Part shown: positions 1 to 25,636 of the stretch, piece by piece
How positions within the stretch are numbered: position 1 is the stretch's first letter
How the letters are laid out: each line of letters begins with the position of its first letter
Source: a virus
DNA length: 27,475 bases
Strand: one strand, 5' to 3'
IMG/VR virus record: IMGVR_UViG_3300014501_000057
Span: 1 to 27,475 of that record
Made by a program: the position numbers and the translations under genes
Notes under the pieces: model-generated
The model's database searches: none
What the model was told of the DNA's origin: nothing
The model's input: only the letters and a program-made list of their open reading frames with translations

Positions 1-2259
1 CGAGCTCGCGAGGCCGAAGTCGTTGGGTGCGCCGTGGTTGGCGACGTAGGCTTGCGCGGTCGACTGCGCGAGTAGCGGCTGCGCGAACTGTGGTGTCCCG
101 CTCGTGAAGTGGACGTTGTTCGAGATGAAGCGAACTTTGTACCACAGGCAGCCCGTCGGAAGCGCGATCATGCCGGGCGAGAGCACGCTATTCGCAACGC
201 CGTTTGTCTGCGTGAGCGTCGATCCGGCGACGACACCTTGATCGGTCACCAGACACGCCTGAAGCGACCCGCTCGTCACGGTCGACGCATCGAGGTGAAC
301 CGCGAACGCGAGCGCGCGCCGCATGCCCCAGACCTGCGGGCCGTCGGCGGTCTGGGTGCCGCTCGCGCTGGCCGAGACCTTCCAGGTATTGACCAGCGCG
401 CCGCCGATCGTCGCCGTGGCAGCCGCGATCCCGGCCGTCACCGTCCAGGTCGAGGGCGCGATGATCTCGGAGTCGGGCGCGAAGTTGGGCGACGTTCCGA
501 CGCCGTCGAAGCCGGTCAGCGTGACGCACTGCACGCCGCGGATGCAGTCACCGTTCGCTAGTCCTTGCGGGGCGTAGTCGGGCACGAGATCGTAGCGGGT
601 GTAGACGCGGAACGTCCCCGCGCTCGCGCCGATCGCGTACTGGTTGAGCAGGCCGAGCGCGTCGTTCGCGCACGCGGCGGTTGTCTGAAACGACGTGTTC
701 GTGACGGGCGCGCCGTCGATCTCGCGGCCGAGCGTCGTGATCGAGAGCGTGTCTTGGTCGATCGCGGAGACCGGCTGCTGGGTGGCCGGATCGGTGTTGC
801 CGATGACCTTGATCGAGTTGTAGCCCTGGCTGGCGTCTTGGTCTTTGACCTCGACGTTGACGGGCTCGTAGGCGGCCGTGCCCTGGTGCAGCGTGACGCC
901 GTAGGTGTACGTGTTGGCCGAGCTATCGTAGAGCTGGATGAGCCGCGGCGTCCGGTCGTGCCCGACGCGCACGTACCAGACGTCGCCCGTCGTGATCGCG
1001 CCGAGCGCGTCCGAGATCGACTGGCCGACCGATGCGTCCGTGCGCGTGCCCGCGAACGTCAGGCCGACGACGGGAAAGTTCGCCGGGTTGATGACCAGAT
1101 GCGGGTAGTTCGTGACCGGGAAGTTCTGATTCTGGATGAACGACAGGATGCACGCGCCGATGTCGGCGTTCGCGAATGTGCCGATCGTATAGTTCTCGTA
1201 GGCTTCGTCGAACGCGCCCGAGAGCGGCGTGAGCGAGATCGTCGCCTTGGGCGCCTTGTCGTTGGGCCGATCGCGCAGCTTGATCACGCCGGCGTAGCGG
1301 CGGCGGCCCAGCGTGCACAGCGGACCGTAGTTGCCGATCGTCGCCGGGTTCCCCGGCATCGTCAGCGGCGTGCCGACCGTGAGGTACGCCTGTCCTGACG
1401 CGGCGTCGACGCCGACGGCGTACACCGGAATCCCCATCGTGAGGCCGACCGAGCCGCCGACGTTCGCGTCGTCGATGTAAACCTGCTGCGCGTCTTCGCC
1501 TTGCGCGGGATCGTACGGCAGCGTCGACCCGCAGTAGAGCCGTTGGTTCGCCGATCCTGCGAACGTGGACGGGACGTACCAGGCCGATGCGCTCGCTGCG
1601 ACTTCGAGCATCGGCTGGCTGAACTTGAGCTTTTGTCCGCTCGCGATCGTCGCGCCGTTGGCAAACAGCTCGATCTCGACGGTCGTCACGCCCGGCACCG
1701 CTTGCCACGTTACGCTCACGCGGCCGGCCGCCCCGACGGGGATCAGCGTGCTGGTACGCGTACCGTGCGCGACGTCGATGAGCTGCAACGCCGCTGAGCC
1801 CGCGGTGATGTGCGACGGGTCGATCCAGATGGACGCGGTTATGTAGTATCCGGAGAAGATCGACCGACCCGGCGAAAGGGCAAAGCTGCTGCTATCCGGC
1901 GCGCCCGTGCCGGTGATCTCGTAGTCGGTCGCGCCGCCCGGCCCGCCCGACGCGAACGCGCCGCCCGAGTTCGTCCAGCTGGTGAACGCGTCCGAACTCG
2001 TCGAGAGGACGTTCTTGGTGATCGCCTGGCCGAGCGCGTCGTCGCCCGTGCTGATCTCGACGATGTTCCAGTCGGTCCAGTAGAAGCGGCTGTACGTGGT
2101 CTCGTAGTGCAGTCCGAGCGTGAGCGTGCCGGCGCCGCAGCCCGCGGGCGTGTCCTCGTACTGGATCTGACCGCCGTTGAAGTCGCCGCTCGCGTCGGTC
2201 TTGAGGCATGCGCTCATCGAGGGCGTCCAGACCGAGACCCGTACGTCTGGAGCGCCCAT
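1..2259 (-). CDS. Large minor tail / baseplate-hub-like protein, 3' part beyond left edge
   Basis: I checked this frame triplet by triplet. It has no stop from the ATG at 2259 to the window edge, giving 753 codons of a truncated gene. The start has GAGG five bases upstream. The protein is rich in Gly, Thr, Ser and aromatics, as in beta-rich tail-tip proteins. The first ~260 residues (MGAPDVRVSVWTPS onward) look like beta-sandwich/jelly-roll domains, and a middle part contains IGACILSFIQNQNFP and GDVWYVRVGHDRTP. Following the tape measure gene in transcription order, it occupies the usual place of distal tail or tail-associated receptor-binding proteins. The family is inferred from position and composition. 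No catalytic motif is recognised, and the C-terminus is not in the window. Confidence 0.8.
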   Translation of the reverse strand, partial: MGAPDVRVSVWTPSMSACLKTDASGDFNGGQIQYEDTPAGCGAGTLTLGLHYETTYSRFYWTDWNIVEISTGDDALGQAITKNVLSTSSDAFTSWTNSGGAFASGGPGGATDYEITGTGAPDSSSFALSPGRSIFSGYYITASIWIDPSHITAGSAALQLIDVAHGTRTSTLIPVGAAGRVSVTWQAVPGVTTVEIELFANGATIASGQKLKFSQPMLEVAASASAWYVPSTFAGSANQRLYCGSTLPYDPAQGEDAQQVYIDDANVGGSVGLTMGIPVYAVGVDAASGQAYLTVGTPLTMPGNPATIGNYGPLCTLGRRRYAGVIKLRDRPNDKAPKATISLTPLSGAFDEAYENYTIGTFANADIGACILSFIQNQNFPVTNYPHLVINPANFPVVGLTFAGTRTDASVGQSISDALGAITTGDVWYVRVGHDRTPRLIQLYDSSANTYTYGVTLHQGTAAYEPVNVEVKDQDASQGYNSIKVIGNTDPATQQPVSAIDQDTLSITTLGREIDGAPVTNTSFQTTAACANDALGLLNQYAIGASAGTFRVYTRYDLVPDYAPQGLANGDCIRGVQCVTLTGFDGVGTSPNFAPDSEIIAPSTWTVTAGIAAATATIGGALVNTWKVSASASGTQTADGPQVWGMRRALAFAVHLDASTVTSGSLQACLVTDQGVVAGSTLTQTNGVANSVLSPGMIALPTGCLWYKVRFISNNVHFTSGTPQFAQPLLAQSTAQAYVANHGAPNDFGLASS

Positions 2260-2551
2260 GCATGCCTCGCAAAGAACAGAGCCGCTCGCACCGAACGGCC
2301 CGGAGATGGAGAACGAACCCGCGTGGCCGCCGCAGCTGCTCGCGGCGCTCGACGCGCTACCGGGTCACGTCGAGCTCGAGAGCCCCGAGGCGGCGGCGAT
2401 CACGCTAGGTGAGGAGCAATTCACCCGCTCGCAGCTCGACGCGCTGCTGACAGCGTGGAATCCGCCCCCGCGGTGCGCGAACGGCCACGTCCTGACCGGC
2501 GGACCGTCCGCGCGCAGGGCCTGCTACTGCGGAGCGCCCGTCACGTCTTGA
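2258..2551 (+). CDS. Small plus-strand protein with C-terminal Cys/His cluster (moron-like)
   Basis: This 97-residue ORF is the only well-supported gene on the plus strand. The ATG at 2258 has GGAG five bases upstream (2249-2252). From about codon 17 the third positions are strongly G/C, as in real genes of this window. The middle is acidic and helical-looking (LLAALDALPG, QFTRSQLDALLTAW). The end carries CANGH and CYCG, a possible zinc-binding cluster. It exactly fills the gap between the tape measure gene, whose stop it overlaps tail to tail, and the tail-tip gene, whose start codon it overlaps head to head. An alternative ATG at 2306 lacks a spaced ribosome binding site. I found no convincing promoter upstream. 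Function unknown; a phage moron-type cargo gene is possible. Confidence 0.72.
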   Translation: MHASQRTEPLAPNGPEMENEPAWPPQLLAALDALPGHVELESPEAAAITLGEEQFTRSQLDALLTAWNPPPRCANGHVLTGGPSARRACYCGAPVTS

Positions 2552-5500
2552 CGTAGCGCGTCGTCGATCCCCACGCGTTGGGGTTTACCGGGAGCATGCC
2601 CTGGCCGCGTCGTGCGAGCAAGGTTGCGAGCGGCCCGATCGTGGCCAGGGCGATCATGTCGGAGTCGATGTTGATCGAGACCTGCAGGTCGCCGCTGCCG
2701 ACGGTCGGCACGCCTGGGTTGGGCGTGAGCGCGTTGCCGTTCGAACCGCCGGTCGTCGAACCCGGCGTCGTCCCGCTGGGCGTGCCGTTCGTCGGCGTCG
2801 GCGTGTAGGTGCCGTTGGCGTTGAGCGTGCCGGTATTCAGATTCGGATACGTGCGTGACACCTGGAACAATGCCGACGATGCTGGCCCGCTGCCGACCTG
2901 GCCCGTGAAGGAGTTCTCGAGGTTGATCAGGTTTTGCGCGCTGATCGTTTGGCCGTCCGCGAGCGTCGCCATCCCCTTCTTTTCGTTCGTGACGCCGAAG
3001 TCGGCGTTGGGATTTCCGCCCTCGAGCCCGAGGATCTGCTGGAGCATCGCCTGTTCGTCGGGCGTGAGCCCCTTGTTCGTGGCGTTCGCGTTGGCCCACT
3101 GCTCCATTTGCTGGTACATGGGCGTGCCGCCCATGCCGACGTTGTACTGGCTGGCCGCGGTGTACGGCGTACCGTTGAACATCTGCGCGCCGGCCGCGCC
3201 GTTGAAGTTGACGTCGGCTTGGCCCCAGTTGGCCGTGTTGTAGATGTCGGGCTGCTGCGCTTGCGTTTCGTGCGGGCCGAACAGGCCGCCGATGTACGAC
3301 CCGAGCATCGCGCCGATCTGTGACCCACCCGGAAAGTGCAGCAGCAGCGACCCAGCGATGCCGCCCAGCGTACCGCCGAGTGCCGAATCGCCGTTGCCGC
3401 CGCCGACTGCACTCCCGGTGAGAAGCCCAGTGAGCGCGCCGCCGATCGCGGACATTCCGCCGCCGCCGGAGCCGCTGCCGAGGGCGCCCTGAATCTGGCT
3501 GAAGACCGATGACCCGCTGCTCGCGCTCGCGGTCGGGATGTCCTGGCCGGCGATCTGCGTGATGTTCGAGGGCAGACCGTTGCCGGCCGGAATGAGCAAT
3601 CCCGCGATGCCCGCGATGTTGAGGCCGTCGAAGCCCGGGATGCTTCCGGTCGCGCCGGGGATCGGCGAGCCGCCGTTTCCGCCGCCGGACTTCGAGACCG
3701 CAGCGGCGGCGAGGGTGGCCGCATCCGTAAGCGTCTTGAGCGCCGCCGTCGCCGGCGTTACGCCCGTGTTGGCGAACGTCGTTGTCGCCTGCGTCGCGGT
3801 CTTCTCTTCGGTCGCGCGCAGCGTTGTCTGCTGCGTCGCCGCGTGCTCTTCGGTCGACCGCACCGTCGTCGCGGTCGTCGCGGTTTTCTGCGCCGCGATG
3901 AACGCCTGCGTGGCCGCGTCCATCTGCGGGTTCGCGCCGCCGACGCCCATCGCGCCGACGCCGACAGCCGCGCCCATGCCCATCGACTTGAGCAGGTTGG
4001 GCAGAATCGAGTTGTTGATCGAGGTGAAGAGGCTCGACTTGACGATCATCGTTTCGAGCGACTTGATATAGTCGGTCGCCATTTGATCCCAGATGCTCTT
4101 GAGACTGTCCTTGAGCGACTGATGCTTCGTCAGGATCGTGTCGAGGAAGCTCGTTTCGTCCTTCTGCTCTTCGTCCGTGAACTTCTTATGCGCCGCCTGT
4201 TCAGACGCCAGGTTCGCCTTGTAGGCCTCGTCGTACTTGGCGAGGACTTCTTCCATGCGCTTCTCGGTCTCGGTCACGTTGCCCGAGATGAGTTCCTCTG
4301 CCGTCAGCGCAGACGCGATGCGCGCCTTATCGCCGGAAGCCTGGGCCGCGACAAGTGCCTGCTGCGCCGCGGCGAACTTTGCGAGATAGTCCTGATCGAG
4401 CGACTGAAGCTGCGCGAGCGTCGAGCCGTAGTAGGCGACCTTCGCCGCGTTGAGCGTGTCGGTCTCTTGCGAATCCGACGTCAGCGCAGCGCGGTTCTGC
4501 TGCAGCCACTTGGAGAGCTGCGCGACGCCGGCGTCTTCGCTGAACGCGTCGGCCCGCTTCTTGGTGTACTCTTCCCAGCTGCGCGATGCGGCGCCGACGG
4601 CTTCGGCGGCTTTGGACTTGAAATCGTCGAGCTGGTCTGACACCGTCGCGAGCGACGTCTGATTCCTGTTGAGCTGCGAGTTGTTTTCGCTCAGGGTGGC
4701 GTTGAGCTTGCCGATCTCGGTGTCGGCTGAATGCACTTCTTGCTGAAGGGCGTGCATCTCGCGCGACTGTGTAGCGGTCAGCTTCGCGCCCGCGCGCTCC
4801 TTGTCGGCAAGAGCGTCGTGCTGCGCTGCCAGCTTGTCGCGGCTTGCGATCAGTCCGTCGATCGTCGACTTGAGCGTCGACTGCGTGATCGTTTCGGAGT
4901 CGATCGCGCCGTTGAGTAGCTTTTGCTTGTCGAGTAGGTCAACGTACGTCTGCGCCTCGAGCTTGGCTTGAGCCGTGCGCTGGCCTTCGACCGTCATCGC
5001 GGTCTTGACCGACTCGGCGAGTTGCTTCTCAGTCGAGTCGTTCGCTTTGAGCGCGGCGTCGAGGTCGATCTGCTCTTGCTTGAATGCCTCGACGACCGGG
5101 TTGCCCTTGTCGTACGCGCCGATCAGCGTGTCCATCGCGCCGGATTCTTTGGGCGCATGGGGCGTCGACGTGCCGGGGATGTGATGCGTGGACGGGTGCG
5201 TCGGCGGCGCGATGTCGTGATGCTGCGACGCGCCCTTGTCGCCGGGAACCGTCAGCGGCAGGCCAGCGGCGCGAGCGTTTGCGACCGTCGGACCGCCCGT
5301 GAGGGAGAGCGGGTCCGTCGGACCGCCCCAGCCGCCACCGGTCTGCGCTGGCCCGGTGTTGACCGGGTTGGGTAGGCGGAATCCAGCCAGGATGCCGAGC
5401 TGCGTGACGGCGCCCTTGATGTCATCGAAGATGCCGAGCGCCCAATCGTGAACGATCTGACCGCTGGTCTTGAAGTCGTCGTTCGTGTCGTTGAGCCACG

Positions 5501-6710
5501 TGTCGAGCGCGGCGCCGGCGGAGACGAATGAGTCGACGTCGGCCTTCGCGTCACGGATGTTCTTAGCCCAGCCGTCGACGGCGCCCGAATCGTCACTCCA
5601 TGCCTTGCCGAGCTGCGCGAGGTCGGTCGCGGCTTTCTCGACGCCCTGTTCGACCATCGGCAGCACGTTCTTCGCCAGCGAGAACATCGCGTCCGAGAAA
5701 CCCTCGGCGCCCGCCTTGAGCTCGGGCAGATGCTGGTGCGCCCAGGTCGTGAACTCGTCCGCGAGTGGCTGCATCGACGCTACGCCCGAGCGCATGCCGT
5801 CTTCGAACGCTTCGAGCACCGGGAGCAGGGCGTTGCCGAACTGTTCCTTGAGCAGATCCGTGAGATTGCTCAGGTTCTGCATCTTGCCGCTGTACGTGTC
5901 GAGCGCCGCCGCGGCGCTGCCGGACATGCGGCTTTCGATACGCTGCAGGATGACTTCGTAGTCAATCCCGTTCTTTTGTTCTTCCTTGGTGATGATACCG
6001 AGCTTGACGAGGCCGCGAAAGCGGCCGTCGTACGCGTCGGCCAACGCCTGGTCCGATTCGGCCAGGCTGGTGCCCTTGGAGGCCGCGAGGTCCATCGCGG
6101 CGGCCTGCGAGCGGATCGTGTCGTTGAGTGTAAGGCCGGCGACGAGCATTGCCTGCATGCCCGCGAGTGCATCGGTCTTCTGAAAGACGCTCGTGCGCGC
6201 GATCGCCGAGGCATAGTCGTCGACTGCCTTGGTCTGCGACTGCCAATCGGTGACGCCCTGGTTCTTGATCAGCGAGCCGATGACGACCATCTCGCGCTGC
6301 GAGGCCGCTGCTTCGTCGACGGAGCTCTTGAGGAACTCGAACGAGGCCGCGGCGACCGCAATAGCAGCGCCGATCAAGAGCAGCTCCGGCGCTGCGTCAC
6401 CCATCCCGCGCATGACCTGCGTGAGCGCGTCGATCTTGACCGCGGCCGCGTCGGCCTGGATGCCCATCGCGCCCAGGCCGGCCGTCATCATGCGGTAATG
6501 GGTGGCGACGCCGTCGACGATGTCGCCGTGCTCTTTGAGGACGCCGCCAAGCTGCTGGTGCGCCGTACCGGTATCCTTGGCGGCGCCCGAGCTGCGGATG
6601 TACGCTTGCTCGAGGTTCTGAAGGCGCGCCGAGAGATCGTCGATCGTCGCGGGCGCGCCGTTGGGGTTGAAGGTGATCTCGGCGGTAAGAGCAGAGGTCT
6701 CGTCGCTCAT
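2541..6710 (-). CDS. Tail tape measure protein
   Basis: At 1389 residues this is the longest complete gene. Tape measure proteins fill the tail tube during assembly and set tail length; the common scaling of about 1.5 A per residue suggests a tail near 200 nm. The N-terminal third has a hydrophobic segment (ELLLIGAAIAVAAASFEFL, about residues 110-130) and TP901-type signatures (GRFRGLVKLGI, YSGKMQNLSNLTDLLKEQFG). The centre is long helical/coiled coil, and the C-terminal third has Gly/Ala-rich segments that could insert in membranes (near SAIGGALTGLLTGSAVGG). I chose ATG 6710 over ATG 6722 because GGAGG sits five bases before it. It follows the tail assembly chaperones, as in most siphophages. 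Confidence 0.93.
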   Translation of the reverse strand: MSDETSALTAEITFNPNGAPATIDDLSARLQNLEQAYIRSSGAAKDTGTAHQQLGGVLKEHGDIVDGVATHYRMMTAGLGAMGIQADAAAVKIDALTQVMRGMGDAAPELLLIGAAIAVAAASFEFLKSSVDEAAASQREMVVIGSLIKNQGVTDWQSQTKAVDDYASAIARTSVFQKTDALAGMQAMLVAGLTLNDTIRSQAAAMDLAASKGTSLAESDQALADAYDGRFRGLVKLGIITKEEQKNGIDYEVILQRIESRMSGSAAAALDTYSGKMQNLSNLTDLLKEQFGNALLPVLEAFEDGMRSGVASMQPLADEFTTWAHQHLPELKAGAEGFSDAMFSLAKNVLPMVEQGVEKAATDLAQLGKAWSDDSGAVDGWAKNIRDAKADVDSFVSAGAALDTWLNDTNDDFKTSGQIVHDWALGIFDDIKGAVTQLGILAGFRLPNPVNTGPAQTGGGWGGPTDPLSLTGGPTVANARAAGLPLTVPGDKGASQHHDIAPPTHPSTHHIPGTSTPHAPKESGAMDTLIGAYDKGNPVVEAFKQEQIDLDAALKANDSTEKQLAESVKTAMTVEGQRTAQAKLEAQTYVDLLDKQKLLNGAIDSETITQSTLKSTIDGLIASRDKLAAQHDALADKERAGAKLTATQSREMHALQQEVHSADTEIGKLNATLSENNSQLNRNQTSLATVSDQLDDFKSKAAEAVGAASRSWEEYTKKRADAFSEDAGVAQLSKWLQQNRAALTSDSQETDTLNAAKVAYYGSTLAQLQSLDQDYLAKFAAAQQALVAAQASGDKARIASALTAEELISGNVTETEKRMEEVLAKYDEAYKANLASEQAAHKKFTDEEQKDETSFLDTILTKHQSLKDSLKSIWDQMATDYIKSLETMIVKSSLFTSINNSILPNLLKSMGMGAAVGVGAMGVGGANPQMDAATQAFIAAQKTATTATTVRSTEEHAATQQTTLRATEEKTATQATTTFANTGVTPATAALKTLTDAATLAAAAVSKSGGGNGGSPIPGATGSIPGFDGLNIAGIAGLLIPAGNGLPSNITQIAGQDIPTASASSGSSVFSQIQGALGSGSGGGGMSAIGGALTGLLTGSAVGGGNGDSALGGTLGGIAGSLLLHFPGGSQIGAMLGSYIGGLFGPHETQAQQPDIYNTANWGQADVNFNGAAGAQMFNGTPYTAASQYNVGMGGTPMYQQMEQWANANATNKGLTPDEQAMLQQILGLEGGNPNADFGVTNEKKGMATLADGQTISAQNLINLENSFTGQVGSGPASSALFQVSRTYPNLNTGTLNANGTYTPTPTNGTPSGTTPGSTTGGSNGNALTPNPGVPTVGSGDLQVSINIDSDMIALATIGPLATLLARRGQGMLPVNPNAWGSTTRYVKT

Positions 6711-6725
6711 TGCCGCCTCCATCCG

Positions 6726-6986
6726 CTACTGCCCCGTATCGGGGTCCTTGCCGAATACCGATCGCGTGATTGCCCGGCCGACCGCGACCTCGACGGCGTT
6801 CTTGAACGTCCTATGTTCACGCGCGCGATCGCGCTGCGACCAATGGAAATACAGCCGAATCTGCTGGCGCGTCATCGTTCGCTCGACGACACGCCAGTCG
6901 CGATTCAGATACCGGCCGACCGCGTTGAGCAGCTCGAAGTACGTCGGCGCTAGGTCGTCGCGCTCGCCTTCGGCTGCGCCGGCGCT
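6726..6986 (-). CDS. Tail assembly chaperone, -1 frameshift extension (gpT-like part)
   Basis: This reading frame has no useful start codon but is clearly coding: 86 codons ending with TAG at 6726-6728, containing TYFELLNAVGRYLNRDW and FKNAVEVAVGRAI. It is in the -1 frame relative to the chaperone gene upstream. It is entered if ribosomes slip at the heptamer C CCA AAA (6986-6992), so the fusion would have about 190 + 86 = 276 residues. Many tailed phages make a short chaperone (G) and a slippage product (G-T) just before the tape measure gene, and this fits position, frame and size. The next ORF (tape measure) starts 15 bases beyond the stop. The slip itself is inferred from sequence. Confidence 0.78.
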   Translation of the reverse strand, partial: SAGAAEGERDDLAPTYFELLNAVGRYLNRDWRVVERTMTRQQIRLYFHWSQRDRAREHRTFKNAVEVAVGRAITRSVFGKDPDTGQ

Positions 6987-7555
6987 TTTGGGCTGGCCGA
7001 GAACACCTCGTTTTCGATCAGCACCTTGCCGATCGCGGTGACGAGCTCGCCCGGCTTCATCGTCTTGTCGATCAGCTTTGCGCGCAGCGCGAGCGACTCG
7101 TCATCGTCCTCGAAGTCCGCGCTCGGCTCGTGCTCCGATCGCGCGAGGAAGTGCGCGAAGAGCGCCTTGAGGGCGGCCCGTTCGGTGAGCACGCGGGCGT
7201 AGCGAACGACCAGCGTGCTGAACTGCTTACCGGGCTCGAGCTTCTCGTAGTCGACGATCACGCCGAGCTCGCTAGCGCCACCGTTGAGCTGCGCCATGAA
7301 CGAGAAGCTCAGTCGGCATTGCTCGTTCGCCGGCAGCGGGTACAGGCGCACGGGTTCGCCGCCGATCGTGAGCGGGATCGGATCGAGGTTCAGGATCTTG
7401 GCCTGCTCGACCGCGTCGTCGAGATTCCCGGCCCCGCCCTCGGGCGCGACCTTCGAGCAGTTCGCCGCGTGACCGCCCGTGACGTGGCACTCGTCACAGA
7501 CGGCTTTCGCGGCTTCGCGCTTGTCGCGCTGCGCTTTGCGCTGTTCGGGCGTCAT
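6950..7555 (-). CDS. Tail assembly chaperone (gpG-like) with N-terminal Cys/His cluster
   Basis: This 201-residue protein lies between the tail tube and tape measure genes, the standard place for the chaperone that keeps the tape measure protein soluble and recruits tube subunits. Its central part (IGGEPVRLYPLP, ECRLSF-like NEQCRLSF) and acidic helical end fit tail chaperones. Unusually, residues 19-33 contain CDECHVTGGHAANC, a zinc-knuckle-like cluster. The ATG at 7555 overlaps the tail tube stop (TGATG), implying translational coupling. Near its end the slippery heptamer at 6986-6992 allows a longer -1 product. The family call rests mainly on context and the slippage arrangement. Confidence 0.82.
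   Translation of the reverse strand: MTPEQRKAQRDKREAAKAVCDECHVTGGHAANCSKVAPEGGAGNLDDAVEQAKILNLDPIPLTIGGEPVRLYPLPANEQCRLSFSFMAQLNGGASELGVIVDYEKLEPGKQFSTLVVRYARVLTERAALKALFAHFLARSEHEPSADFEDDDESLALRAKLIDKTMKPGELVTAIGKVLIENEVFSASPKAPAQPKASATT
6986..6992 (-). promoter_or_regulatory. Putative -1 ribosomal slippery site CCCAAAA
   Basis: On the minus strand, zero-frame codons AGC CCA AAA form an X XXY YYZ heptamer (C CCA AAA) 34 bases before the zero-frame stop at 6950-6952. A GC palindrome, GCGCCGGCGC, follows immediately. Slipping back one base enters the open frame that ends at 6726. No clear pseudoknot was identified by eye. Confidence 0.7.
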
Positions 7556-8805
7556 CAGTACGCCGTCGCCGAGCTCGTCACGAGATCAATTTGGAGATCG
7601 TTTCCGTTGCCGGGCGTCTCGGCGGCGTCGGCCGTGAAGACCTGCTCGAGCGAGCCGTACTGCTTGCCCGCGACGGGGTCGCCGGTCGGGTACAGATTGG
7701 GCGTACGCACCGTGATCGAGTACGGCACGGTACGGCCCACCGTCGAGTCGGCGTCCGTCAACGAAGCGATCGGGATCGCGAGCGAGACACCCGCGATCGA
7801 AGGCCCCGGTCCCGACGTCGTACCCAGGAACGTGTCGTAGACCGACGCATCCGCGAACGAGAACGTCGCCGAGACGGTGGCCTTGCGCTGACCGACCGGG
7901 AAGGCCGCGACGGTGCGCTGACCCGGCGGCTTGAACGTCTTTTCGAGGCCGTTCGCCAGCGACGCATCCCACTTCTTGAGGATCGTGCCGGCCGGCAGCA
8001 CGGCACCGTTGAACAGTACGCCGTTGAGTAAGCCGGTCTGCGGGAACGGGGCCTCCCAGTGCAGCGGGAACGCGGTCGAGAACGCAGGCGTCGCCGGGCT
8101 GCCCTGCAGCGCTTCGGTCGCCGCGACGAGGCCGAAGCTCGGTACGAGCAACTGGCCCGGCGCGCAGCCCAGCTTCATCGAGTCGATCGTGGTGCCCGAG
8201 AAGTCCCAGCAGTCGTAGCCGCGGTTGTACTCGAGCAAGAAGCTCGGCAGGGTCGTACCGTAGCTGCAGGTCGAGAAGAACGCGGTCGTCGAGAGCGCCT
8301 GGACCGTGTCGCCGATCGCATGCGTCTTGGTCGCGTTCGAGACGGTGACCGTGTTGGCCGCGTGCGCTGAGACCACGCAGGTCTCGACGTTCGCGGTTCC
8401 GGCTCCGACGATCACGGAGTCACCGACCAGGACGTCCGTACCGGTGCCCGCGGTCACGGCGAGCGCGATGCTCGAGCCTACGGCCGAAGTCGACGTCAGC
8501 GCGGTCGTGTAGTATGTGGCCGCGACCGGTGCGGTCTGCGCGCCCATCGCCCACGCGATGAACGGCGCGAGCGTGTCTGGATCGGGGTTCGGATCGAGGT
8601 TTCCGGCCGCGTCGTACGGGCCGGCCGGCGAGAGCGACACACCCGGGCGCTTGCGGCCGTTGGGCCGCGAGACGCTCGTGTTCTTGCCTTGCAGCGTGAA
8701 CGCCGAGAAGCCGGGCGCGATCGTGGCGGCGCCGGGGTTCACGCCGAACGTGACCTCCTTGCGCACCATGACGAAGGTTTGATGGGCAACGACGACAGCG
8801 GGCAT
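7555..8805 (-). CDS. Major tail tube protein
   Basis: This is a 416-residue, beta-rich protein with few charged residues (KEVTFGVNPGAATIAPGF near the N-terminus; TVPYSITVRTPNLYPTGDP near the end). It has the composition and position of a tail tube subunit, between the tail terminator region and the tail chaperones. Residues of about 115-165 (DVLVGDSVIVGAGTAN onward) look like an inserted small beta domain that may project from the tube, which would explain why it is longer than the usual 150-250 residues. ATG 8805 has GGAGG five bases upstream. A strong 12-bp hairpin lies just before the ribosome binding site and may set expression of this abundant structural protein. Confidence 0.82.
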   Translation of the reverse strand: MPAVVVAHQTFVMVRKEVTFGVNPGAATIAPGFSAFTLQGKNTSVSRPNGRKRPGVSLSPAGPYDAAGNLDPNPDPDTLAPFIAWAMGAQTAPVAATYYTTALTSTSAVGSSIALAVTAGTGTDVLVGDSVIVGAGTANVETCVVSAHAANTVTVSNATKTHAIGDTVQALSTTAFFSTCSYGTTLPSFLLEYNRGYDCWDFSGTTIDSMKLGCAPGQLLVPSFGLVAATEALQGSPATPAFSTAFPLHWEAPFPQTGLLNGVLFNGAVLPAGTILKKWDASLANGLEKTFKPPGQRTVAAFPVGQRKATVSATFSFADASVYDTFLGTTSGPGPSIAGVSLAIPIASLTDADSTVGRTVPYSITVRTPNLYPTGDPVAGKQYGSLEQVFTADAAETPGNGNDLQIDLVTSSATAY

Positions 8806-12262: not shown

Positions 12263-12280
12263 GAAATCTCCCGTGATGAG

Positions 12281-12352
12281 CACGCGCAGCGGGAGTCGAA
12301 CCCGCGTCGCCAGCCCAACGGGCCGGCCATCGACCATCGAATGTGTGCACGT
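12281..12352 (-). tRNA. tRNA-Asn(GTT)-like cloverleaf, degenerate
   Basis: A 72-base cloverleaf folds on the minus strand: acceptor ACGTGCA with TGCGCGT (one G-U pair), D arm CATT/GATG with GG in the loop, anticodon stem CCGGC/GCTGG with loop CCGTTGG (anticodon GTT at 12317-12319), four-base variable loop, and a perfect T arm GCGGG-TTCGACT-CCCGC. Against a functional tRNA: base 33 is C rather than T, position 8 is C, A14 is lacking, and no CCA is encoded. It could be a divergent phage tRNA, a remnant, or a tRNA-like mRNA element between the capsid and the next gene. Confidence 0.5.
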
Positions 12353-21583: not shown

Positions 21584-22192
21584 TCACGCGTTGGCCTCGG
21601 ACTCGATGTACGCGACGCAGAGTCGCTCGAGGATGATGCCGTTGCGCAGTTGCTCGCCCTTGCGGCCGCGGGCGGGTTTCTCGATCTGGTCGCGCATCAT
21701 CTCGAGCGCCTGGTCGATCGTCAGCCGCTGGAGCTCGGTCACGAGGAACCGCAGCGCCTCGGGCTTGGCGTTGACGGCGGGCTCCGGATCTTCGTCCTTC
21801 GCCTTGGGCATCAGCGCATCGAAGCGCAGCTCGGCGAACGCGTCTGGATCGAGGCCGCGGATCTCGGTGAGCAGGCCGGCCAGGTCGTCCGTGAAGCTGC
21901 CGGCGAGATGCGGGCTGTTCAGCGCGACGTTGAGCGCCTTCTCGGCGACGGGCTCAAGGTCGACGAAGGTCACCCAGCACTCTTTGTGGCCGAGCTTCTG
22001 CATCGCAAGCGCGCGCTGGTGGCCGCCGACTGTGAAGCCGGTCCGCACGTTGACGATGACGTCCTGGACCTGGCCGAACCGGCTGATCGAGTCCATCAGC
22101 GCGTTGAGCGACTTCTCGTCGATCGTGCGCGGGTTGTACGGCGCCGGGACCAGGTCGGCGATCTTGCGGTGCTCGCGGCGAAGGGCTTTCAT
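21584..22192 (-). CDS. ParB/Srx-fold nuclease-like protein
   Basis: This is a 202-residue protein. IADLVPAPYNPRTIDEKSLN (NPR at 20-22), then PVQ-like FGQVQDVIVNVRTG and VGGHQRALAMQKLG (GGHQR at 56-60) form the N-terminal ParB/sulfiredoxin-type nucleotide-binding fold. The helix-turn-helix DNA-binding domain of true chromosome-partition ParB is not evident; the C-terminus is a different helical region ending in ERLCVAYIESEANA. Phages often encode such proteins near terminase or DNA methylase genes, with proposed roles in DNA modification or packaging. ATG 22192 overlaps the upstream stop (ATGA). Confidence 0.85.
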   Translation of the reverse strand: MKALRREHRKIADLVPAPYNPRTIDEKSLNALMDSISRFGQVQDVIVNVRTGFTVGGHQRALAMQKLGHKECWVTFVDLEPVAEKALNVALNSPHLAGSFTDDLAGLLTEIRGLDPDAFAELRFDALMPKAKDEDPEPAVNAKPEALRFLVTELQRLTIDQALEMMRDQIEKPARGRKGEQLRNGIILERLCVAYIESEANA

Positions 22193-22818
22193 CGCGCCGT
22201 GTCCACCCACAGGACGTAGTTCTGATCGGCGCTTGGCGCTTCGGGGGGCCGGGGCGGAGCCATCTCCGACGCGGCTGAGACGGCTGAGACGGGTCGAATG
22301 GCGACAAAAGGCCGCGGTCGCTGCAGGCGGCGCGCCCGCAGAATCGCGATCACGACGTCGCGTTGCTCGCGCGTCACCGGAATCACCCACTGGATGCCGC
22401 CGGCGCGCCACTCGACATAGCCGTCCGGGACGATGAAGCGCGGCGGTGCGAGCGAGACGATGCCGGTGCGCTCGTCCAGTACTTCCCACGGACCGGCCGC
22501 GCTTCGGTTAAGGTCATCGAAGATCGGTCGGGCCAGGAATGCCGACCGAATTCGGTCGTACGAGCAATCCGCCGGCGCGAACGCGAGGTAGAACGCCATG
22601 CGCGCTCGGAACGTCGTCATCGCCCGCGAGCGTCGACGGTGGCAGCGCCGGTGTCCGGACTGTTCGGCGCGCGCCGTGAAGCCGCTGCGGCTGGCCAGCA
22701 TGCGCATCCGCGGTAGGGCTGCGCGTTGGGCCGACGTCGATTCGCCGCGGCCAAGGATCTCGAAGAAGCGCGCGCACTCGCCGCGGCGGCGCTGGGCCAT
22801 CAGCTTGCGGCGGGTCAC
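22189..22818 (-). CDS. Basic protein of unknown function
   Basis: This 209-residue ORF starts at GTG 22818, overlapping the previous stop (GTGA). Third-position G/C is high from the first codon, which supports this start over the ATG at residue 67. The N-terminal ~65 residues are Arg-rich (SGHRRCHRRRSRAM), suggesting nucleic-acid binding. The remainder has WEVLDERTGIVSLAPPRFIV, YVEWRAGGIQWVIPV and an Arg-rich helix, and the tail is Pro-rich. No family recognised. It is part of the tightly overlapped run leading to the ParB-like gene. Confidence 0.68.
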   Translation of the reverse strand: MTRRKLMAQRRRGECARFFEILGRGESTSAQRAALPRMRMLASRSGFTARAEQSGHRRCHRRRSRAMTTFRARMAFYLAFAPADCSYDRIRSAFLARPIFDDLNRSAAGPWEVLDERTGIVSLAPPRFIVPDGYVEWRAGGIQWVIPVTREQRDVVIAILRARRLQRPRPFVAIRPVSAVSAASEMAPPRPPEAPSADQNYVLWVDTAR

Positions 22819-24405: not shown

Positions 24406-25302
24406 TCAGAGCCGCAAGTACTTCCCGGAGCCGTCCCGCGGCTTCGAGTGCAGGTAGAGCGACGTCGTCGAGATCGACGCGTGGCCGAGCGTGTCGCGCA
24501 CGAGCGAGATCGGCGCGCCGGCGTCGAGCGCGTGGCTGGCGTGCGCGTGACGCAACCAGTGCGGGCTGACGGGCTTGGCGATCTTCGCCCGCCGCGCGGC
24601 GCCGGCGACGACGTCGCGCAACTGCGAGAACGAGAGCGGCAGGCCGTTGCGCATCCGGAAGATCGGCGCGTCGTCGGGATCCTCGGGGCGCCGGAGCGCC
24701 GCGGCGAGAGACCAGACGGGCGCGGGGATCCGGACGGTGCGCAGCTTCGAGCCCTTGCCGACGACCGAGACGAACGCGTCGCCCGTCTCCTCGTCAACCG
24801 TTGCCGATCGCCAGCGCAGCGAACAAAGCTCGGCGCGGCGGAAGCCGCCCGCATAGAGCAGATGCAGGATCGCGACGTCGCGCGGCTTGCGCGGCGCGCG
24901 GATCAGCCGTCGAGCCTCGGCGCGCGTGAGCGCCCGTTCGCTTGGATCGTTGATCACCTTGGGGACGCGCAGCGCGACACCGACGTCGACGGGGATCAGC
25001 CCGGCGCGCGCGAGGAAGCGCAGGAGCGACTTGACCGCCGAGAGCATGCGCGCTCGCGTCCGGATCGCCAGCTCGGCTTCCTCGAGCTCGTCGGCGTAGT
25101 CCTGAAGGTCGGCCAGCGTGGCCGCGGCGAGCGGCTTTCGCAAGAACGCATGCATCCTGGCGATGTCCCGGCGGTAGGTTTCGATCGTCGACGCCGGTCG
25201 GCCGTGCAGCCAGAGCCCGACGAGGCGATCGTCGCCCGGTCCCGGACTTGGCCGGGAAAGTCCCGTACCGGCGGTGTCGGTGAGCGCGATCGCGTCGAGC
25301 AT
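24406..25302 (-). CDS. Tyrosine recombinase / integrase (XerC/D-like)
   Basis: This is a 298-residue enzyme. The core-binding SAM-like domain covers about residues 28-105 (STIETYRRDIARMHAFL), the catalytic domain about 120-298. All catalytic residues are visible: R155 in GGFRRAEL, the beta-hairpin Lys in GKGSKLR (183/186), H248 and R251 in HWLRH, H274 in LGHASI, and the nucleophile Y283 in SLYLH. Integrases of this family cut and rejoin DNA at short core sites; here it is probably the phage integrase, although length and layout are also Xer-like. ATG 25302 with GGAGG four bases upstream is chosen over GTG 25305. A regulatory-looking gap lies upstream and a putative secreted protein downstream. 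Confidence 0.92.
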   Translation of the reverse strand: MLDAIALTDTAGTGLSRPSPGPGDDRLVGLWLHGRPASTIETYRRDIARMHAFLRKPLAAATLADLQDYADELEEAELAIRTRARMLSAVKSLLRFLARAGLIPVDVGVALRVPKVINDPSERALTRAEARRLIRAPRKPRDVAILHLLYAGGFRRAELCSLRWRSATVDEETGDAFVSVVGKGSKLRTVRIPAPVWSLAAALRRPEDPDDAPIFRMRNGLPLSFSQLRDVVAGAARRAKIAKPVSPHWLRHAHASHALDAGAPISLVRDTLGHASISTTSLYLHSKPRDGSGKYLRL

Positions 25303-25636
25303 CACGCCTCCGCCGGTCGAGTCACTTCACTCGGTTACGTCACTATAGTCGCTATACTCGGTATAGCCGCTGAACTTTTCTCGCACGCGGACACGCACGC
25401 GCACTCGCGCGATCTAGTGATAGAACGCGTCGGACCGAACCCATTTAAATGACACTTCAGTGGGGTTTTTCGACGGGCTCAGGACCGATGCGATCGGGCT
25501 GGCCGGCGTCGCCCAAACCGCCGATTCTTGACGAACGCTGAACGCTTGCGGATCGCATCGAACGCGGCCGCGTGACCCTCGCAACGACCGCCGCGAACCG
25601 CTTCGCGCGGCTCGAACAGGCAGTCAGAGCAGAGCT
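25303..25636. other. 334-bp regulatory gap upstream of integrase
   Basis: No supported gene. It holds an AT-richer island with operator-like repeats (25342-25367), a purine/pyrimidine GC run, the palindrome CATTTAAATG (25442-25451) followed by a T5 run (25466-25470), and a hairpin at 25590-25611 (GCCGCG(CG)AA-gcgg-TTCGCGGC on the minus strand) that could end transcription of the upstream 76-residue gene. The integrase promoter and possibly the phage attachment site would be expected here; neither can be proven. Confidence 0.5.
25342..25367. promoter_or_regulatory. Operator-like inverted repeats upstream of integrase
   Basis: ACTATAGT (25342-25349) is a perfect palindrome. It is followed by a perfect inverted repeat, GCTATAC-TCG-GTATAGC (25351-25367). 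Minus-strand TATAGT and plus-strand TATACT are near -10 boxes, but no good -35 partner is seen. The site is about 40-65 bases upstream of the integrase start, a suitable place for an integrase or excision control protein. Confidence 0.55.

Follow-up and report, generated by a model that had tools for sequence, protein, structure and literature searches.

The window, that is, the whole stretch of DNA analysed here, is a virus record of 27,475 bases without host information. Every called gene is encoded by the minus strand apart from one small gene at 2258–2551 (+), which extends from the ATG at 2258–2260 to the TGA at 2549–2551 and codes for 97 amino acids. It is located between the tape-measure gene (2541–6722, minus strand, 1393 amino acids, stop codon at 2541–2543), recognized as such by its position and length, and the tail-tip gene (1–2259, minus strand, 753 amino acids, ATG at 2257–2259), which runs off the end of the window. 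An earlier note on this DNA had described the small gene as the only one of its polarity, with its stop codon overlapping that of the tape-measure gene tail to tail, and both statements are borne out: it is the sole plus-strand call, and the two converging genes share 11 nt at their ends (2541–2551). The note's main point, that an isolated inverted gene exactly fills the junction between the two tail genes, is upheld by the comparisons described below, which indicate a real gene. A minus-strand gene occupying 2260–2540, which the note had envisaged as speaking against this, was rejected: all three minus frames contain stop codons in this interval, and none of the relatives has a minus-strand gene there.

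Relatives with and without the inverted gene

The major capsid protein served as a query and led to a sibling phage (G001, IMGVR_UViG_3300035687_000014, 36,371 bases), whose major capsid protein is 77% identical to that of the window. The tape measure of the window is 50 and 38% identical in segments to the 1560-amino-acid tape measure of the sibling, and the tail-tip protein 42–51% in segments to the sibling's of 1917 amino acids, with the start codons aligned. At the junction the sibling has the tape-measure gene (L007:2823–7505, +), then an inverted small gene (L007:7493–7780, −) and then the tail-tip gene (L007:7848–13601, +). The product of this small gene (95 amino acids) is homologous to that of the window (39% identity over 82 amino acids, E = 1e-14), and its gene is the sole inverted one in the stretch from the integrase to the small gene that follows the tail-tip gene. 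A search for homologues, which had been proposed as a check together with the question of their orientation, has thus yielded one, likewise inverted between tape-measure and tail-tip genes. Kept in both phages are the place, the inversion, the C-terminal motif and the overlap with the converging end of the tape-measure gene, which measures 11 nt in the window and 13 nt in the sibling.

In a third relative (G002, IMGVR_UViG_3300022557_000263) homologues of the tube, chaperone, tape-measure and tail-tip genes are present. The tape-measure gene (L010:3159–6923) and the tail-tip gene (L010:6995–12169) are separated by 71 bp, which contain a terminator-like hairpin and no inverted gene; elsewhere in this record only a 13-residue match (E = 2.4) to the small protein was found. 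Because the third relative possesses both flanking genes without the small gene, the latter is, as judged from these gene orders, optional. Its presence does not follow tail-tip relatedness, the tail-tip proteins being 57% identical between sibling and third relative and 46% identical between window and sibling; this is what one would expect if the gene were acquired or lost in one piece.

The viral contigs yielded no homologue when searched with the window protein and only the sibling when searched with the two-member alignment. There was no homologue in the phage records and none on plasmids, where only short matches to Phaeobacter plasmids were obtained (40% coverage, E = 0.2), and no family match to the small protein in PHROGs, Pfam, NCBIfam, PADLOC, or the PDB sequences. 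The best match, phrog_28080 (E = 0.054), was to the sibling protein only and was judged to be due to chance. Bacterial genomes scanned with the tail-tip and terminase proteins revealed no relative, and one further phage (L002 of G003) was set aside, as it shares only tail-tip-like domains, has another gene order at the junction and lacks a homologue. The small gene is previously undescribed, and its relatives in the searched databases amount to one uncultivated phage; the sample consists of two family members and one absence, all of them from incomplete environmental records without host information.

In all three phages the gene that precedes the tape-measure gene is followed, in a different frame, by a reading frame that is conserved (window 6722–7000, minus strand, with ..DDLAPTYFELLNAVGRYL..; L007 about 2560–2800; L010 about 2900–3140). 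This out-of-frame extension probably reflects the G/GT programmed frameshift that is usual for tail assembly chaperones. In both relatives a second inverted gene is found just past the tail-tip region (L007:13946–15105, −, 315 amino acids; L010:12534–13562, −, 342 amino acids); the two products are 29% identical over 154 amino acids (E = 4e-15), and the L007 copy has no family match.

Coding evidence, hairpin and start codon

The case for the small gene that can be made from the window by itself is modest. The probability of finding 97 open codons by chance is about 0.19 at the composition of the window, so that the open length alone is no evidence. The codon score from the ATG at 2258 is 0.11 bits per codon, as compared to 0.3–0.7 in most of the tail and head genes, and it was reached by none of 2000 composition-matched shuffles; codon use, which had been called good in the earlier note, is therefore far above that of shuffled sequence but only modestly gene-like. 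That the open reading frame 2258–2551 is a real protein-coding gene is concluded from sequence comparison, because the sibling carries a conserved homologue, inverted and in the same place. When the 36 frame pairs across the junction were compared between window and sibling, the annotated pair scored z = 19.5 and the next one 4.8; no pair but the annotated one gives a strong alignment, which indicates that there is constraint on the protein frame. A spurious reading frame in a GC-rich gap, which the chance expectation for its length and the weak codon score would allow, has next to no likelihood against a sibling protein conserved in the same inverted place and a coding frame that alone aligns strongly, and with the sibling homologue it can in practice be dismissed.

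The start codons of the small gene and of the tail-tip gene lie together in the palindrome CATGCATG (2257–2264), which occurs only once and is not conserved in the sibling. Each of them is preceded at 5 nt by an SD-like sequence, GGAG (2249–2252, plus strand) in the case of ATG 2258 and GAGG (2265–2268, minus strand) in the case of the tail-tip ATG at 2259. The geometry given in the earlier note, a CATG overlap within the palindrome and a ribosome binding site for each gene, is therefore correct; the weight given to it in the title of the note is not sustained, since in the sibling 67 nt lie between the small-gene ATG and the tail-tip ATG, and since an interlock of this kind is no more than chance would give. 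The reverse complement of CATG is again CATG, and wherever an ATG follows a C the opposite strand reads ATG as well. For this reason the interlock needs no explanation, and the interlocked ATGs are probably a coincidence. One could think of a functional divergent overlap, in which initiation at the ATGs of the two strands is coupled or mutually exclusive, and the good spacing of both SD-like sequences would fit; the chances of this are very slim, as the overlap is lost in the sibling, as the two starts sit on different RNAs, as CATG provides such pairs for free, and as the N-terminal 16 codons look non-coding.

Read in the direction of the tail genes, a hairpin of 10 bp followed by TGTTCTTTGC (2279–2301, minus strand) ends 19 nt before the tail-tip ATG. 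A hairpin of 10 bp is also present in the sibling (L007 about 7802–7826), ending 21 nt before the tail-tip ATG, and one of 12 bp followed by CTTTT in the third relative (L010:6944–6974), 20 nt before that ATG. Stems this long occur in shuffled 60-mers with a frequency of about 2% (window), 2% (sibling), and 0.4% (third relative), and of the 18 gene starts inspected in the window that of the tail-tip gene alone reaches 10 bp, one other having 9. The stems are unlike in sequence in the three phages; it is the position that is kept. The resemblance to a terminator is strongest in L010, and the hairpin may act in the tail operon as a partial terminator or as an element of RNA processing or stability.

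The small gene may also be shorter. The extent with the best codon score is 2306–2551 (+), which starts at M17 (M17 ENEPAW) and codes for 81 amino acids, and the first 16 codons from ATG 2258 score below background (−1.9 bits) and contain the 10-bp hairpin. A start at ATG 2306 would place the hairpin between the genes, in a divergent gap of 46 nt, which is where the sibling has it too. There is no good SD before ATG 2306, whereas ATG 2258 has the good GGAG at 5 nt. On account of the hairpin position in the three phages and of the codon scores we lean, with some reservation, toward ATG 2306 as the true start.

Motif and predicted fold of the small protein

The C-terminus of the small protein contains the motif C-x3-H-x11-C-x-C (C73, H77, C89, and C91). 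The four residues are identical in the only homologue, as are flanking Gly and Arg, in a comparison of two sequences; the Cys/His C-terminus noticed earlier is hence real and conserved. The spacing C-x3-H...C-x-C is typical of a metal site, and the motif is regarded here as a putative one, with metal binding predicted from the pattern of residues. In having this conserved motif at its C-terminus the protein resembles small zinc-ribbon and zinc-knuckle proteins, from which it differs in that its motif is short and that it has no match to any family of Pfam, NCBIfam, PHROG, PADLOC, or PDB. AlphaFold models have a mean pLDDT of 70.6 and 61.9, and fold searches with these low-confidence models gave no significant match and nothing above common arrangements. 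The protein probably consists of a small alpha-beta-beta-alpha part, taken from the low-confidence model of the sibling protein, which is followed by the metal knuckle.

Interpretation of the inverted gene

The window carries a gene for a tyrosine integrase (24406–25305, minus strand; phrog_1 integrase, E = 2e-42), and the integrase is present in both relatives (70% identical in the sibling, 56% in the third relative), which points to a temperate lifestyle. Since the phage bears an integrase and the gene is optional, stands alone and is inverted within the late operon, the locus is best regarded as an accessory locus, and we consider it rather probable, if far from certain, that the small gene is a moron-like gene of a temperate siphovirus-like phage that acts in the lysogen via its own promoter. 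The suggestion of the earlier note that the gene is moron-like cargo finds support in the inverted homologue in the sibling, its clean absence in the third relative, the integrase, and the antisense location. In a transcriptomic study of Salmonella prophages a location antisense to lytic genes is described as characteristic of accessory or moron loci, one of which was found to be transcribed from its own promoter (PMC7067206). The small gene is like such loci in being optional among relatives, antisense to lytic genes and part of a phage with integrase, and like the moron STMMW_20121 of Salmonella ST64B (PMC7067206) in being a single gene between phage genes; it is unlike described morons in that it ends inside the tape-measure gene and that no terminator was found after it.

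Such a locus could work as follows. A single small gene, whose product has roughly 81–97 residues, is carried backwards at the tape-measure/tail-tip junction, and its own promoter, located at the tail-tip gene's 5' end or else in the short gap between the two divergent genes, would drive it. Because the gene faces against the late operon, we infer that it would be transcribed when this operon is silent, which is in the lysogen. The protein might then act on host or phage physiology, where our guess, drawn from what morons usually do, would be the exclusion of other phages or the modulation of a host factor. By ending only 11–13 nt inside the tape-measure gene the small gene could fill the junction with neither tail gene being harmed. 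A scan for sigma-70-like promoters found none in the window phage or the sibling. In the sibling an extended −10-like TGCTATGCT is seen, by eye and post hoc, 6 nt before the ATG, which is without an SD; it is compatible with a leaderless transcript from a promoter of its own. No plus-strand terminator was found near 2551 by a scan that covers classical terminators only. The small gene could equally be expressed late.

It is less likely, but worth serious thought, that the gene serves the phage itself as a tail assembly helper, a late regulator, or in another lytic function, being inverted by happenstance and transcribed from its own promoter during infection. This would agree with its being flanked by these tail genes in both phages that carry it and with a divergence (39% identity) that resembles that of the neighbouring tail proteins; it agrees poorly with its absence in the third relative, which has both tail neighbours, and with the fact that, owing to the inversion, its transcription would run head-on into that of the late operon at the very time when the gene is needed. 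The earlier note had also thought of antisense regulation of the tail genes, for which no evidence was found. In such a unit the plus-strand transcript would silence or tune the mRNA of the tape measure or the tail tip, the protein being secondary. The ends of the small gene overlap both neighbours or nearly so, and an antisense RNA of a prophage that covers a tailspike gene, STnc6030, has been described (PMC7067206). We nevertheless consider this improbable, since there is constraint on the protein frame (the z of 19.5), the overlap amounts to only 11–13 nt, and the sibling has lost the overlap on the 5' side.

Going further than the reading as a moron-like gene, we tentatively propose that the two proteins represent a new family from temperate phages, small and with a putative metal knuckle, whose members are encoded inverted at the junction and act in the lysogen, e.g., in superinfection exclusion or host-factor modulation, and that insertions recur at this junction, with a hairpin at a fixed spacing from the tail-tip start as its mark. 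Genes oriented opposite to the late operon are promising places to look for functions conferred by a prophage on its host, and a small gene without relatives in the databases searched beyond one uncultivated phage is a testable unknown. The pair of presence and absence together with the common hairpin marks where such genes fit while the tail operon stays intact.

Two other features of these genomes should be mentioned. A ParB-like/DNA methyltransferase-like gene (window 21584–22489, minus strand) lies upstream of the terminase region and has a counterpart of 56% identity in the sibling. A tRNA-like element immediately follows the major capsid gene both in the window (12280–12352, minus strand) and in the sibling (L008:14499–14574, +). 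The element of the window has an altered anticodon loop, is called tRNA-Asn (GTT) by ARAGORN and reaches 20.8 bits with the tRNA-Sec model; that of the sibling is tRNA-Sec-like with a UCA (UGA-reading) anticodon, matches the Rfam tRNA-Sec model below the gathering threshold (E = 7e-6, 35.7 bits), and is called tRNA-SeC by ARAGORN.
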